From: Candidatus Rokuibacteriota bacterium
GTDB taxonomy: Bacteria; Methylomirabilota; Methylomirabilia; Rokubacteriales; CSP1-6
Assembly (NCBI GenBank): GCA_003220535.1
Contig: QHSU01000054.1
Coordinates: 248,001-312,000, forward strand
DNA length: 64,000 bases
Direction: 5' to 3'
Each line of letters starts with the position of its first letter. Positions within the stretch are counted from its first letter, which is position 1. This document shows positions 20,007 through 35,950 of the stretch, piece after piece. The position numbers and the translations under genes are program-made. Below the pieces are notes generated by a model that had not been told where the DNA came from, did no database searches, and saw nothing but the letters and a program-made list of their open reading frames with translations.

Positions 20007-20022
20007 ATTAGGGTGACCTAAT
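20007..20022. promoter_or_regulatory. palindromic operator ATTAGG-N4-CCTAAT (iron-box candidate), copy 1
   Basis: A perfect 6-bp inverted repeat ATTAGG-GTGA-CCTAAT. An identical arrangement (spacer TCAT) is found at 32358-32373 before the FTR1 iron cluster. The half-site TTAGG/CCTAA is that of DtxR/IdeR/MntR-family metal repressors, though the spacing here is shorter than the classical IdeR box. It lies between the phosphopantetheinyl transferase and the bfd-bfr genes. Confidence 0.6.
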
Positions 20023-20286: not shown

Positions 20287-20535
20287 ATGATCGTTTGTCT
20301 CTGTCGAGGCCTCGCGGACCACGCGATTCTGGCGATGATCGAGCGCGGCGGCGACACGCGCGAGCGGCTGGCCGCGACCTGCGGCGCGGGCGCCGACTGC
20401 GGGAGCTGCGCGTCGATCCTGGATGCGCTGCTTGATGAGGCCCGGGACGCGAGCTATAGTGGCCGCGCACTGCGACCCCACCTCGCCATTGGAGGACCTT
20501 CATGCGCGGCCACGAGCAGGTCATCACCCTCCTGA
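20287..20535 (+). CDS. bfd: bacterioferritin-associated ferredoxin
   Basis: An 82-residue protein. Its cysteines at 4, 6, 38 and 41 match the four [2Fe-2S] ligands of E. coli Bfd exactly (CLC near the start, then DCGSC). Bfd delivers electrons to bacterioferritin to release stored iron. The classic protein ends near residue 64; here the frame continues about 18 residues and overlaps the bfr start by 34 bases, so the tail may be dispensable. An extra Cys32 lies in the loop. It directly precedes bfr, the usual pairing. Confidence 0.88.
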
Positions 20536-20981
20536 ACGACATCCTCACGGCCGAGCTCACCGCGATCAACCAGTATTTCATTCACGGTCGGATGTGTGAG
20601 AACTGGGGCTACGAGCGTCTGTGGAAGAAACTCCGCGAGGAATCGCTGGGCGAGATGCGTCACGCCGACAAGCTCATCGAGCGGATCCTCTACCTCGAAG
20701 GCGTGCCGAACGTGCAGCGGCTCGGCAAGGTGAACGTCGGCGAGACGGTACCGGAGCAGCTGCGGCTCGACCTCGAGGTCGAGCGGTCCGCGATCCGAGC
20801 CTTGAACGCGGGGATCGAGGTCGCCCGGGGGCTCGGCGACAACGGGACCCGCGACCTCCTCGAGGACATCCTCGAGGCCGAGGAGAAGCACGCCAACTGG
20901 ATCGAGGCCCAGGTGACGTTGATCGCGCAGACCGGTGAAGGCAACTACCTGGCGCAGCAGATCAAGCACGACGACGAGTAG
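20502..20981 (+). CDS. bfr: bacterioferritin
   Basis: A 159-residue haem-containing ferritin that oxidises and stores iron in a 24-mer shell in the cytoplasm. All ferroxidase ligands are present at canonical positions: E18, E51, H54, E94, E127 and H130, and M52 is the haem ligand. Length is typical. A GGAGGA site (20491-20496) sets the ATG start. Translation is likely coupled to bfd through a 34-base overlap, and both sit downstream of the palindrome at 20007. Confidence 0.97.
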
Positions 20982-31508: not shown

Positions 31509-32234
31509 TCAGAGCTTCTCGGCGAGCCAGTCGAAGATCACCGAGGCTCCGTGGGTCAGGTAGTCGCGCTGGCAGTGCTGGGCGCCTCCTTCCTCGGCCG
31601 TGAAGACGCGGAAGGTCTTGTCCCGAGAGCCGACCGCGTCGAACAGGGCCTGCGCGTCGGCCATGGGGACCTGCTCGTCCTCGGCGCCGTGGGTCAGGAG
31701 AAACGCGCAGCGCATCCGCTGCACGACGCCGTCGAAGAAGACCACGCACGGCCGGCGGGCGACATCGGTGTTTTCGGCGTGCACGAAGTAGCTGGGGAGA
31801 CTGCCGTCCGCGAAGGGCACCTCGACTACCTCGATGCGCGGCCGGTCGGTGAGGCGGGCGAAGCGGTGAAAGCACTCGACGCCCTCGCGATAGGTCTCGA
31901 GGGCCTTCGGGTCCTTCGGCGTCCGGAAGCGCTCGGCCATCTGATAGTAGTTGCACGCGCGCAGGTAGGCGCCCGCGGCCGTGAACCGCCGGCGCTGCCG
32001 CTCGGCGGCGCGCGCCAGCTCGGCCACGCGATCGCCCTCGGCGCGCCACGCCTCGAACCACGCCGCGTTGTCACCGAGGTGCTTGCGCAGGGAGCGAGCG
32101 GCGCGATCGACCTCACCGATATCGCTCCCGCCGTAGGGCGCGCTGCCGAGGATCCCGCCGACGGCCGACGACCAGCGATAGTCCTCGGGAAAGTACGTGA
32201 ACCAGTTGGCGGTCTTGGGCATCACGGTCGCCAT
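31509..32234 (-). pseudogene. alpha/beta hydrolase lacking its nucleophile region (in-frame internal deletion)
   Basis: Only 241 residues where family members (2,6-dihydroxypseudooxynicotine hydrolase/FrsA-like) have about 380-400. The N-terminal helical part and the first strand (RRPCVVFFDG) are normal. The sequence then jumps, at about residue 169-170 (around 31728-31733), straight into the late strand with the catalytic Asp, LLTHGAEDEQVP (D186), and the catalytic His, GGAQHCQ (H220). The oxyanion region, the GxSxG nucleophile elbow and the helices after it are missing. Frame is kept. It cannot be a working hydrolase of the usual type. Confidence 0.72.
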
Positions 32235-32341: not shown

Positions 32342-32373
32342 TTGACAGCCCCCTCGGATTAGGTCATCCTAAT
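32342..32373 (+). promoter_or_regulatory. promoter with palindromic operator (iron-box candidate), copy 2
   Basis: A perfect TTGACA (32342-32347) is followed by ATTAGG-TCAT-CCTAAT (32358-32373). The palindrome covers the spacer and the -10 position (CATCCT at 17 bases or CCTAAT at 20), where a repressor would block RNA polymerase. Same palindrome as 20007-20022. It leads directly into the cupredoxin/FTR1 genes. Confidence 0.62.
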
Positions 32374-32415
32374 TCACGCAGGATGGGTACCTAAAGCTTC
32401 GGGGCGGAGGGAAGC

Positions 32416-32760
32416 ATGCGCAGCCGGATCCTACTCCTCGTGGCCGGTGTCGTCGCCTCGCTCCTCGTGATCGTCCCGGCGGCGTCGGCAGCGGACGCGC
32501 CTCCGGAAATCCCCCTGAGCATCGACAAGAGCCAGTTCCAGCCCAGCGAGGTGAAGGTCAAGGCCAACGCCCCGTTCGTGCTCGTCATCACGAACAAGGG
32601 GGCGAAGGCGGCGGAGTTCGAGAGCAAGGACCTCCGCGTCGAAAAGGTCGTGCCGGCTGGGAAGACCGTCAACGTGCGGATTCGCGCGCTCAAGCCCGGG
32701 ACGTACGCCTTCATCGACGACTTCAACCATCAGGCGACCGGGCGCATCGTCGCCGAGTGA
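32416..32760 (+). CDS. exported cupredoxin-like protein (EfeO cupredoxin-domain type)
   Basis: A 114-residue protein with a signal peptide (residues 1-25, ending ASAA). The mature part is one cupredoxin-fold domain: IDKSQFQPSEVKVKANAPFVLVITNKG, KAAEFESKDL and GTYAFIDDFNHQATG. It matches the N-terminal domain of EfeO-like iron-uptake proteins without the peptidase-like M75 part. A classical blue-copper set (Cys, two His, Met) is missing; one His and the acidic residues in EFES are conserved-looking. It lies 12 bases upstream of the FTR1 permease gene and likely hands iron to it. The ribosome site is GGAGGGA. Confidence 0.85.
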   Translation: MRSRILLLVAGVVASLLVIVPAASAADAPPEIPLSIDKSQFQPSEVKVKANAPFVLVITNKGAKAAEFESKDLRVEKVVPAGKTVNVRIRALKPGTYAFIDDFNHQATGRIVAE

Positions 32761-32772
32761 CCGCGAGGCCTC

Positions 32773-33627
32773 ATGGGCGGCACCTTCGTCGTCACGCTCC
32801 GCGAGGGCTTTGAAGCCGCGCTCATCCTGGGCATCGTCTACACGTACCTCCACAAGATCGGCGCGGCACGCCACTACCACTACGCCACGCGGGGCGGCCT
32901 GCTCGGCGTGGTCGCCAGCGTCGCCCTCGGTGTGCTCGTCACGGCGCTGTCCGGACCGCTGCTGGACCTCGGCCCCGACGTGATCGGTCTCGGCGTGATT
33001 TTCATCGCGGTGATCGTCCTCACCTGGCACGGCTACTGGATGCAGCAGCACGCCCGGGCCGTGAAGGGCGACGTCCAGCGCAAGATCGACGAGGCGCAAG
33101 CGACCCACCGCCTGTGGATCATCGGCGTGATCGCCTTTACCGGCGTCTTTCGCGAGGGGGCCGAGACGGTCCTCTTCCTGTGGGGACTCCTGAGCCAGGC
33201 GACGTCCACGTCCAGCTGGGCCAGCGCGACCGGAGCGGTGCTCGGCCTCGCGATGGCGGCGGCGCTCGGCTGGGCCATCTTTCGGGGTGGCCGACACATG
33301 AGCCTGCAGCGGTTCTTCGCCGTCACCTCCATCTTGCTGCTGCTCCTGGCCGCCGGCATGTTCAGCACCGGTGTCGGCAGGCTGGAAGCCATGGGGTTCC
33401 TTCCGCAGTCCCCGACGGTATGGGACACCTCGTCGGCCCTGGACGATCACGCCCTCGTGGGCGGATTCCTCAACGGGCTCGTCGGCTACCGCGCCCGACC
33501 GTCGTTGCTCGAGGCCGGCAGCTATCTGGTCTACCTGATCGTCGCCGGCGCGCTCCTATTCAGAGGTGGTGCGTCGAAACCGCGGCCACGCTCTCCCCGG
33601 AGGCCAATCCCAGCCCAGGTGACGTGA
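32773..33627 (+). CDS. FTR1 family iron permease
   Basis: A 284-residue polytopic inner-membrane protein with both iron-passage motifs: REGFE (residues 10-14) and REGAE (127-131), matching RExxE of the FTR1/EfeU family. It imports iron, in known systems as Fe(III) delivered by a periplasmic or extracellular partner. Its upstream cupredoxin and downstream porin, FMN-binding and ApbE genes suggest a four- or five-component system. Stop at 33627 is followed at once by the 47-bp dispersed repeat. Confidence 0.93.
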   Translation: MGGTFVVTLREGFEAALILGIVYTYLHKIGAARHYHYATRGGLLGVVASVALGVLVTALSGPLLDLGPDVIGLGVIFIAVIVLTWHGYWMQQHARAVKGDVQRKIDEAQATHRLWIIGVIAFTGVFREGAETVLFLWGLLSQATSTSSWASATGAVLGLAMAAALGWAIFRGGRHMSLQRFFAVTSILLLLLAAGMFSTGVGRLEAMGFLPQSPTVWDTSSALDDHALVGGFLNGLVGYRARPSLLEAGSYLVYLIVAGALLFRGGASKPRPRSPRRPIPAQVT

Positions 33628-33628
33628 G

Positions 33629-33675
33629 GTGCGCGCCGCAGGCCGTCGCGGGGCTGGAGCCCCGCTGGCCGAGGC
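33629..33675 (+). repeat. 47-bp dispersed intergenic repeat, copy B
   Basis: Begins one base after the FTR1 stop. It matches copy A (14188-14234, opposite strand) with about 3 mismatches. The centre is a GGGGCT-GG-AGCCCC stem. See copies A and C for context. Confidence 0.8.
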
Positions 33676-33997
33676 ACGGACTCCGGATCGAGGAGAGAAT
33701 CGCGGCAAAGCCCATTCCAACACGATAGACGGGTTACACCGCCAGCCGAGACTCACCGGTGGGTGAGACGGCTGGCCGCTGAGATCGCCAGAGCCAGCCA
33801 CCCCAGGGCAGCACGCGCCCGAGGCAGCCAGCCACGGTACCGGCGCGGCCAACGCCGCGCGATACGGAGAGCGCGTGAGCAGCCAGATCGCAAACGAAAC
33901 CTCTCACCAGCCAGCACTCCGGGGAGGACTCTCTTCCGGTAGCCAGCCATGGGAGCCGGCACCGCCGTACGGCAGCGCCCACAAAGGAGAACTCCAC
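33676..33997 (+). promoter_or_regulatory. long leader before the porin gene: structured, nonamer repeats
   Basis: This stretch carries no gene. It contains a strong two-part stem-loop at 33741-33776: GCCAGCCG/CGGCTGGC outside and CTCACC-GGTG-GGTGAG inside. The nonamer AGCCAGCCA occurs exactly at 33792, 33826 and 33941, with partial copies at 33881 and 33909. An AAAGGAGA ribosome site ends it. I could not match a known riboswitch. Confidence 0.4.
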
Positions 33998-34717
33998 ATG
34001 GCTCGGTGCTTCAGATTGGTGTGCGCAGCCGCCCTGGTCGCGAGCTTGGTGACGCTCGGCGCGGCGGTTCCGGCAATCGCCGCGTCCCCCGAAGAGATCG
34101 ACGCGAAGCTCAAGGCGCTTCAGGAGCAGGTGGACGCGCTGAGAAGGGAGCTCGAGAAGGCCAGGCAATCTCCCCAGGCTGGACCGCCCCCCGCGCCAGC
34201 TGTCGGAGAATCTCCGAAGGTGGCGCCGGCCACCAGCACGTCGTGGATCAGCGACTTCAAGATAGGAGGCTACGGCTCGACGCGCTTCGAGGCCTCGGAT
34301 CTCGACCGCGTGAACAACACCTTCACCTTCCGCCGCTTCGTCCTGTCGGGTGACGCGACGATCGCGAACCGTCTCCGGAGCGTCGTCGAGGTCGAGTTCG
34401 AGCGCCTGACAGAGCTCGAAGTCGAGAAATCATCGCCGTCGGAGGGAGGGCTGCGCGGCTTCTCGAACTCGATCGAGAGCAGCGACCAGTCCGAGATCTC
34501 GCTCGAGCAAGCCTGGATGCAGTTCACGCTGGCGGATTGGGCCCGCTTCCGCGCGGGAACGCTCCTGGTGCCGCTCGGTCGGTTCAACCTCAACCACGAC
34601 GACAACCGCTGGGATCTACCGCGCCGCTCCCTGGTCGATCGCGGCGTCTCGGTTCTTCCGGTCAAGGCCGCATGGTCGGAGGTCGGGATAGGGTTCGTCG
34701 GAGTGTCTTCACGGTGA
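33998..34717 (+). CDS. porin-like outer-membrane protein, C-terminally truncated
   Basis: A 239-residue remnant. It starts with a signal peptide (about 1-27, ending AIAASP) and a coiled-coil (EEIDAKLKALQEQVDALRREL), both typical of phosphate-selective/OprO-type or related porins that form trimeric beta-barrels. The first strands follow (SWISDFKIGGYGSTRFEA, RRFVLSGDATIANRLRS). Family members go on for about 380-450 residues, but here the frame ends right after VGIGFVG at 34717. The rest of the barrel, including a terminal aromatic, is missing; the next coding sequence is an unrelated FMN-binding domain. Either a deletion or an assembly join removed it. Confidence 0.75.
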   Translation: MARCFRLVCAAALVASLVTLGAAVPAIAASPEEIDAKLKALQEQVDALRRELEKARQSPQAGPPPAPAVGESPKVAPATSTSWISDFKIGGYGSTRFEASDLDRVNNTFTFRRFVLSGDATIANRLRSVVEVEFERLTELEVEKSSPSEGGLRGFSNSIESSDQSEISLEQAWMQFTLADWARFRAGTLLVPLGRFNLNHDDNRWDLPRRSLVDRGVSVLPVKAAWSEVGIGFVGVSSR

Positions 34718-35034
34718 CGCGGAACGAGGCGACCGCCGGCTTCGTCGTCGTGATCGAGGAAATCGGCAAGCACCGGCCGATCACCTTCGCGGTCGGAGTG
34801 CGCGCAGACGGCAAGGTGAATGACCTCGCCGTTCTCGCGTACCGCGAGGCGTACGGCGGCGAGATCAGGGACCGGCGGTTCCTCGGCCAGTATCGTGGCA
34901 AGGCGCTTCCCGACGCCTTGCTTCCCCATCAGGACATCCGCAACATCTCGGGCGCGACGCTGTCGGTGCAAGCCACCGGACGAGCCGCCCGCAAGGCCAT
35001 CGCCGTGCTCCGAGCCACCGGAGACCTCCAATGA
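34714..35034 (+). CDS. FMN-binding domain, N-terminally truncated (flavinylation target)
   Basis: A 106-residue FMN_bind domain (PF04205). The flavinylation motif D74-x-x-x-x-SGAT82 (DIRNISGATL) is intact, so T82 is the expected attachment site for FMN transferred by ApbE, which is encoded next. The GTG at 34714 overlaps the porin stop (GTGA). These domains act outside the cytoplasm and normally have a signal peptide or membrane anchor; none exists here, consistent with a lost N-terminus. It would carry electrons as a covalently bound FMN. Confidence 0.75.
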   Translation: MTRNEATAGFVVVIEEIGKHRPITFAVGVRADGKVNDLAVLAYREAYGGEIRDRRFLGQYRGKALPDALLPHQDIRNISGATLSVQATGRAARKAIAVLRATGDLQ

Positions 35035-35044
35035 GGCCGCGCCA

Positions 35045-35950
35045 ATGGTGACCCATGTGAGACCGCGGATGGGCACGCTCCTCGCCGTGACGCTGCCAGC
35101 CCGCGGTGTTCCGGGCAGGCCGGACTGGTCGACCGCATTCGGAACCGCGACCGCATGGGAACGGGTGATGAGCCACCACGCGCCGACGAGCGACGTCAGC
35201 CGCTTGAATCGCCTCGCCGGAGATCCCATCGGCCTGATCTCGCGAAGATTCGCGGCGGCCATCGCCGTTGGATGCGGCCTGGCGGAACGGACCGGAGGCG
35301 CCTTCGATCCAACCTTCGCTCCGTTGGCGCGGTTGTGGCGGAACGCCGCTCGCCGTCGCAGGCCACCCTCGGCGCGGCTGGTGGAGCGTGCACGTCGGCT
35401 CGTCGGCTGGCGCGCGGTCACGGTCGACGGCCCCCGGGTTTCCCTGGCGTCGGAGGGCATGGCGATCGACTTCGGCGCCGTCGGCAAGGGGATCGCTCTG
35501 GACCGCATCGTGAGACGCCTCCGGCGTCGTGGCTGCCGATCCGCCATCCTCAACTTCGGAGAGTCGAGTCTCGTCGCGATCGGGCACCCGCCCCGAGGGC
35601 GATGGCGTATCGTCCTGCGCCATCCCGAAGGTGGCTTCGCCGGCGAGTTCACGCTCGACGAACAGGCATGCTCGACGTCGGGAACGTGGGGTCAGACGAC
35701 GCGGCTCGGATCGGCGGTGCTGGGCCACATCGTCGATCCCAGGAGCGGACAGCCGCTCCGGCGGCGCGCGCAGGTCACCGTGCTCGCCCCGTCCGCGGCG
35801 GTCGCCGAAGCGGCGTCGACTGCGCTCCTGGTTCTGGGGCGTCGGGCCCTGGATGATTTCGCACGAAACCATGGCGTCGACGGTCGTGATGATCGCCGTG
35901 AGCACGTGGGAGTGCCTCGGCTCTCCAGGCCACGGTCCCTAGAACATTGA
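35045..35950 (+). CDS. apbE: ApbE family FAD:protein FMN transferase
   Basis: About 301 residues. It transfers FMN from FAD to the Thr of the SGAT motif in partner domains such as the one upstream. Visible: MGTLLAVTL, then TGGAFDPTFAP, AIDFGAVGKGIALDR, LNFGES and GHIVDPRSGQPL, all in the family order. There is no signal peptide, though known members act in the periplasm. The last 25 residues are unlike the family; in another frame the region reads VVMIAV...LGSPG and stops at 35942, which fits better, so a one-base shift near 35875 is possible. The end overlaps the -35 of the following gene. Confidence 0.8.
   Translation: MVTHVRPRMGTLLAVTLPARGVPGRPDWSTAFGTATAWERVMSHHAPTSDVSRLNRLAGDPIGLISRRFAAAIAVGCGLAERTGGAFDPTFAPLARLWRNAARRRRPPSARLVERARRLVGWRAVTVDGPRVSLASEGMAIDFGAVGKGIALDRIVRRLRRRGCRSAILNFGESSLVAIGHPPRGRWRIVLRHPEGGFAGEFTLDEQACSTSGTWGQTTRLGSAVLGHIVDPRSGQPLRRRAQVTVLAPSAAVAEAASTALLVLGRRALDDFARNHGVDGRDDRREHVGVPRLSRPRSLEH

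Follow-up and report, generated by a model that had tools for sequence, protein, structure and literature searches.

A porin, FMN-binding protein, ApbE and four-helix membrane protein module linked to iron-uptake genes in Methylomirabilota

Introduction

Flavin-linked iron assimilation has already been described. The main text of PMC8238504 reports 260 P19 clusters that include a gene for a flavin mononucleotide (FMN)-binding protein, and ties several flavinylated classes to iron reduction; according to the same text, some PepSY-like clusters are Fur-repressed. Here we analyse a 64,000-nt stretch of DNA from Candidatus Rokuibacteriota bacterium (QHSU01000054.1, positions 248,001–312,000), hereafter the window, whose numbering is used for all coordinates without a locus prefix. 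A cupredoxin, an FTR1 iron permease, a truncated porin, a fragment of an FMN-binding-domain protein (FMN_bind) and ApbE lie in line on its + strand (32416–35950), just as a preliminary description of the window had stated. That description missed a sixth gene, encoding a small membrane protein that we call TM4, and a palindrome upstream. Porin, FMN_bind, ApbE and TM4 form a module whose link to iron is well supported.

The locus shares with the P19–FTR1–FMN_bind clusters of PMC8238504 an FTR1 permease, an FMN-binding-domain protein and a suspected redox step in uptake. Those clusters, as described there, are mostly Gram-positive, whereas the present system brings in a porin, ApbE, TM4 and either an FtrB-like cupredoxin or a multicopper oxidase. 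No P19 was found among the scanned cluster proteins of the window and its relatives; the family (PF10634) is absent from the window cluster and matches elsewhere in this genome (G000), on contigs C137 and C98. The PepSY-like and MsrQ-like flavinylated iron reductases outlined in PMC8238504 likewise combine a flavinylated extracytosolic protein with a membrane carrier and iron transport. Here, by contrast, FMN_bind is the substrate domain, TM4 the proposed carrier and FTR1 or an FbpABC-like transporter, not VIT1, the importer, and a porin belongs to the unit. As in FtrABCD, an FtrB-like cupredoxin adjoins an FTR1-family permease, but FtrA (P19) is missing from the cluster and a flavin module stands instead. 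Neither FtrD (among the five cluster proteins) nor the DyP peroxidase EfeB (among the scanned cluster proteins) was found, the genome at large having been searched for neither.

Since FTR1/P19/FMN_bind clusters and flavin-linked iron assimilation are on record in PMC8238504, calling the system previously undescribed, as the preliminary description did, was too strong. The elements that are new relative to that text are TM4, the porin and a switch between twin-arginine (Tat) and Sec export. The P19/FTR1 branch is presented in the main text of PMC8238504 without a membrane electron source and with no outer-membrane route named, and the word porin is absent from the main texts of both PMC8238504 and PMC11334425. 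For Methylomirabilota, methanotrophs, anammox bacteria and a number of further groups, the module offers candidates for the electron source and the outer-membrane route, and its carriage by Methylococcus and Methylobacter strains opens it to testing.

Iron genes accompany the module

Of 99 genomes searched with the FMN_bind fragment of the window, 20 matched, its own included, leaving 19 relatives. Iron-import-type or iron-regulator-type genes lie close to FMN_bind in 16 of these 19. FTR1 adjoins module genes in eight (G003, G030, G077, G079, G080, G082, G087 and G090), which bears out the expectation that these genes co-occur in other genomes. FTR1 and FMN_bind share a contig in seven of the eight (in G080 in part); in G080 and G090 the contig carrying FTR1 and porin ends, and the remaining module is on another. 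Six relatives (G061–G066) have an FbpABC-like transporter near the module, a name given on the basis of a binding protein of the SBP_bac_6 and 8 families and its permease and ATPase neighbours. A DtxR-type gene is adjacent to the module in G034 and ~3 kb away in G044, whose second, distant FMN match (L035) has no module around it and was not counted separately. Fur is found nearby in several class relatives. No iron-type neighbour was seen in G048, G052 or G084, the loci of G048 and G084 being near contig starts.

The module comes in two subfamilies. In Methylomirabilis-like genomes, the type A order, of which each locus has a varying selection, is Fur–(AOX-like protein)–FTR1–porin–(multicopper oxidase)–FMN_bind–ApbE–TM4. 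Type B runs ApbE–porin–FMN_bind–TM4. Both occur beside FTR1, type B in G030 only, where it follows cupredoxin–FTR1. In G062–G066 type B comes after a multicopper oxidase and the FbpABC-like transporter, and in G061 that transporter accompanies a type A module. Type A and B modules at L025, L031 and L038, which belong to different Methylomirabilis-like genomes, seemingly share one chromosomal location, judged from flanking genes that are similar-sized and unaligned.

A TM4 alignment run against named genomes took the survey past the class and confirmed 175 loci, of which 80 were kept. They span Rokubacteria, Methylomirabilota, many methanotrophic Gammaproteobacteria (strains of Methylococcus and Methylobacter included), Brocadia, Deltaproteobacteria, Dadabacteria, Thermodesulfovibrionia and Entotheonella, among others. 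TM4 was called in 76 loci, FMN_bind in 67, porin in 63 and ApbE in 16. The order porin–FMN_bind–TM4 holds in 54 of 79 loci, and in 48 of those 54 the gap between FMN_bind and TM4 is 10 nt or less. Outside the class, a Fur-consensus match of 13 or more of the 19 bases lies upstream of 16 of 57 porins, whereas of 694 control genes 44 have one (Fisher P = 1.8e-6, the genomes being related and the sites non-independent). In Methylobacter WM.3.3, TM4 follows an FTR1 fused to a C-terminal Rieske [2Fe-2S] domain (L078:7914–8951), and the locus also holds a bacterioferritin-like gene, a BFD-like gene and a multicopper oxidase that a transposase-like gene interrupts (for the last three the names come from sequence). 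In Brocadia (L081:7212–9002; L114), FMN_bind and ApbE form a single chain with a signal-like start, beside TM4.

A palindrome marks iron genes

At no more than one mismatch, the palindrome ATTAGGTNNNCCTAAT has four distinct sites in the 7.18-Mb genome: before cupredoxin–FTR1, before bfd–bfr, next to the start of a dtxR-like gene (whose start codon is uncertain) and at a fourth position that lacks an iron gene. Scanned at the same threshold, this genome and 11 relatives together, 12 genomes, hold 16 distinct sites. Eight of these, in eight genomes, lie 375–402 bp before FTR1. Three precede bfd–bfr, one dtxR and two another cupredoxin; the last two are the non-iron place in this genome and the identical 16 letters in G005, a genome with no FTR1 match. 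G008, G034 and G048 have no site at this threshold. FTR1 is present without the palindrome in G008, and in G034 a copy with two mismatches lies in the promoter region of the porin operon. In 14 other class loci, scanned up to two mismatches, the palindrome was not found; Fur may act there instead. The palindrome is a candidate operator of an iron regulator, with a DtxR-like protein suspected of binding it. The iron link proposed in the preliminary description is reinforced by these regulators and operator-like sites.

The second cupredoxin under the palindrome (L161:1880–2284 and L162:1985–2332) is followed by a ~255-residue protein with a signal-like start and of unassigned kind.

TM4 and the export of the flavin carrier

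TM4 is a protein of ~165 residues with four long helices (model pLDDT 92.5). Tyr55, Gly57, Pro67, Glu75, His78, His80 and Trp124 are invariant in 66 sequences. His80 and His93 are 13 residues apart on the same helix, a spacing close to that of the haem ligands in cytochrome b helices. TM4 might form a dimer that binds two haems, and it probably completes the electron path of the module. Like the DUF4405/FezC membrane cytochromes of PMC11334425, among which FezC is modelled as a haem b-binding homodimer, it is a small membrane protein linked with flavinylation or iron. Unlike them, it has no Pfam match that ties it to DUF4405 (three TM4 proteins, E up to 1), a comparison made with the family and not with the FezC sequence itself. 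Homologues of TM4 are labelled PF27139.1 in the protein database.

Among the FMN_bind proteins of the 80 loci (n=67), the flavinylation motif reads [ST]GA[ST] in 58 and AGA[ST] in 8, with neither in 2. The FMN_bind proteins of fuller modules carry export signals, as the preliminary description had anticipated. In the class, type A FMN_bind has a twin-arginine N terminus in nine of nine cases (by pattern), and inspection by eye showed a signal in none of the nine type A ApbEs. Type B FMN_bind has a Sec-like signal in four of four (by eye), and the four type B ApbEs with readable starts are of the twin-arginine kind, that of L034 being recognized by eye and not by pattern; the start at L036 is unreadable. 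These signals suggest that type A proteins of the class probably receive their flavin ahead of Tat export, and type B proteins once they have been exported. Elsewhere, the ApbEs of L055 and L064 are Tat-like in look and that of L080 is not.

Proposed mechanism and alternatives

We consider it reasonably probable that, where intact, the porin/FMN_bind/ApbE/TM4 module reduces ferric iron in the periplasm via a covalent flavin for import. Iron would enter through the porin, whose model is OprO-like (E 3.8e-14). ApbE would attach FMN at the [STA]GA[ST] motif of FMN_bind; TM4, perhaps as a haem-b dimer through His80 and His93, would pass electrons from the quinol pool or the cytosol to this FMN, and the bound flavin would reduce Fe3+. 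Re-oxidation of Fe2+ at FTR1, the permease that would move iron inward, would then fall to the cupredoxin here and to a multicopper oxidase in some Methylomirabilis; in other relatives an FbpABC-like transporter would take the place of FTR1. The predicted order of reductase, ferroxidase and permease is that of yeast Fre–Fet3–Ftr1, from which the module differs in being bacterial, in a flavin predicted to be covalent on a periplasmic protein and in its outer-membrane porin. A wider proposal, offered as a conjecture that may well fail, is that porin–FMN_bind–TM4 constitutes a widespread, iron-regulated reductive uptake without a TonB receptor, in which TM4 represents a new minimal class of carrier (a two-haem-b dimer) driving a flavinylated ferric reductase, with FTR1, FbpABC or other importers and in two export versions, the flavin being added in the cytosol ahead of Tat export or on the outside by an exported ApbE.

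Several points weigh against periplasmic reduction for import. To the observed gene content, gene order, iron-gene linkage, operator-like sites and deletions it adds a direction of electron flow and a chemistry for TM4 that are inferred, and the FbpABC-like transporters are presumed to be specific for Fe3+. Fold searches with TM4 gave no significant match, and His93 is histidine in 64 of the 66 sequences and arginine in two. The expected full barrel of an intact porin is seen as a barrel-like model in a relative, at moderate confidence only (pLDDT 69.5). FTR1 is retained, with no module seen, in six further genomes of the genus, so FTR1 does not depend on it. Finally, iron-type neighbours (labels Fur, FTR1, FbpB, multicopper oxidase and DtxR, within ~7 genes) were called in at least 13 of the 80 loci (L041, L044, L045, L046, L049, L053, L061, L075, L077, L078, L079, L092 and L104), a lower bound since the simple gene caller missed FTR1 in L047 and L094, and some of the 13 are class genomes already counted among the 19 relatives. 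Most loci hence stand alone, and outside the class the iron link consists mainly of the Fur-like boxes.

The strongest rival reverses the flow: the cupredoxin or multicopper oxidase would oxidize Fe2+, and FMN_bind and TM4 would act as the electron sink of this ferroxidase step, leading the electrons into the membrane. A ferroxidase requires an acceptor. FtrD is the presumed electron sink in FtrABCD, and the window cluster has a cupredoxin closest to FtrB with no FtrD among its proteins (cluster only); the FTR1–Rieske fusion beside TM4 also fits a redox-coupled permease. A multicopper oxidase, however, can use oxygen itself, and the module also occurs alone with its porin and, in 6 of 19 relatives, with FbpABC-like transporters, which are expected to need no ferroxidase. 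Reversed flow explains the FTR1 cases and accounts less well for the FbpABC-like and stand-alone ones; we regard it as unlikely. The module could also have a general redox or solute function in the periplasm or outer membrane, such as taking up anions or exporting respiratory electrons, with its nearness to iron genes in the class secondary. Most methanotroph loci, which have no called iron-type neighbour, speak for this, as do the resemblance of the porin to OprO and its weak match to the phosphate-selective O/P family. Against it stand the 16 of 19 class relatives with iron-type genes close by, the involvement of two transporter types as well as two regulator types, and Fur-like boxes upstream in other phyla, and we give it little credence.

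State of the module in this genome

The sister genome G003, collinear with the window here, served as the reference for deletions. Relative to it the window lacks ~1,085 bp (L023:8201–9285), which hold the porin C terminus and the FMN_bind N terminus, and ~547 bp (L023:10422–10968), which hold the ApbE tail and most of TM4. The damage to porin and FMN_bind noted in the preliminary description is thus real. Its expectation of a sister genome with the full version held in part: fuller modules exist in the class, but in G003, with all six genes present, the ApbE frame is broken near residue 99. In G034 a stop interrupts the signal region of FMN_bind and the porin frame is broken, so that all three Rokubacterial type A copies seen (window, G003 and G034) are damaged. 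The reductive half is probably dead in this genome, with cupredoxin–FTR1 remaining. In G001 and G006 the gene downstream of the window module lies directly 3′ of FTR1, indicating that members of the genus differ in whether they carry the module at this site.

The FMN_bind fragment is 85% identical to its G003 counterpart, and the dN/dS values against G003 are 0.12 (FMN_bind), 0.17 (porin part) and 0.18 (ApbE C terminus), as compared with 0.21 for FTR1. The fragments therefore still look constrained; either the decay is recent or the deletions are assembly errors. Metagenome misassembly, with an intact module in the living cell, would suit this constraint on the leftover fragments (0.12–0.18) and an assembly of 162 contigs with 8% contamination. 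It would have to account for deletions at two separate positions within one contig of 386 kb, and the breaks in G003 (ApbE) and G034 (FMN_bind and porin) speak against it too, which makes it improbable in our judgement.

Features of the window

Coordinates are collected in Table 1. The cupredoxin, which has a signal-like N terminus (judged by eye), finds its best PDB match in 8vuk (E 8.6e-12), Brucella FtrB (PMC11966278). Both Glu and the DDF stretch align with it, and the presumed position of FtrB His121 is Asn followed by His (numbering inferred). The likeness to an EfeU/EfeO pair, drawn in the preliminary description, is not supported: PF09375 (M75) was found in none of four genomes (G000, G003, G030 and G077; controls positive, 4 of 14), and the cupredoxin is nearest FtrB. 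The permease belongs to the FTR1 family and scores 195.6 bits with the EfeU model, whose cut-off is 255. The porin remnant reaches 25.0 bits with Alginate_exp, slightly under that family's cut-off of 25.2, and takes its name from full-length relatives (homologue L023:7416–9050). The whole genome has one FMN_bind match and one ApbE match, and these adjoin with the SGAT motif in place, as reported before. The window ApbE has no recognizable signal peptide. The TM4 remnant matches residues 146–160 of its G003 counterpart at 67% identity (E 0.033), and the DNA at 86% over 36 nt.

Table 1. Features of the module locus and of the second palindrome site in the window
Feature	Position	Strand	Remarks
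Palindrome, second copy	20007–20022		Before bfd–bfr
BFD-like [2Fe-2S] ferredoxin	20287–20535	+	Under second palindrome; named from sequence alone
Bacterioferritin-like gene	20502–20981	+	Named from sequence alone; homologue under similar palindrome in G003 and G006
Palindrome ATTAGGTCATCCTAAT	32358–32373		Candidate operator 5′ of cupredoxin–FTR1 operon
Cupredoxin, FtrB-like	32416–32760	+	PF13473, E 5e-26
FTR1 iron permease, FtrC/EfeU-like	32773–33627	+	PF03239, E 1.5e-44; intact
Porin, N-terminal 235 residues only	33998–34702	+	Open frame continues to 34717 out of register
Deletion junction 1	34703–34710		Porin fused to mid-FMN_bind, different frame
FMN_bind, C-terminal fragment	34711–35034	+	PF04205, E 1.2e-8; ISGATLS motif; no signal peptide
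ApbE	35045–35950	+	PF02424, E 2.8e-55; native to ~35881, foreign tail after
Deletion junction 2	35852–35884		ApbE tail joined to TM4 tail
TM4 remnant (C-terminal tail), frame 3	~35874–35942	+	Four-helix membrane protein, sixth gene

Two further features flank or interrupt the cluster. A hydrolase-like gene of ~0.7 kb with weak Pfam matches lies on the − strand at 31509–32234, within a stretch of roughly 0.8 kb that is missing at this place in G003. The gap between FTR1 and the porin remnant contains an imperfect inverted repeat (33742–33775) with outer arms CCAGCCG and CGGCTGG (by eye), to which Rfam gave no match.

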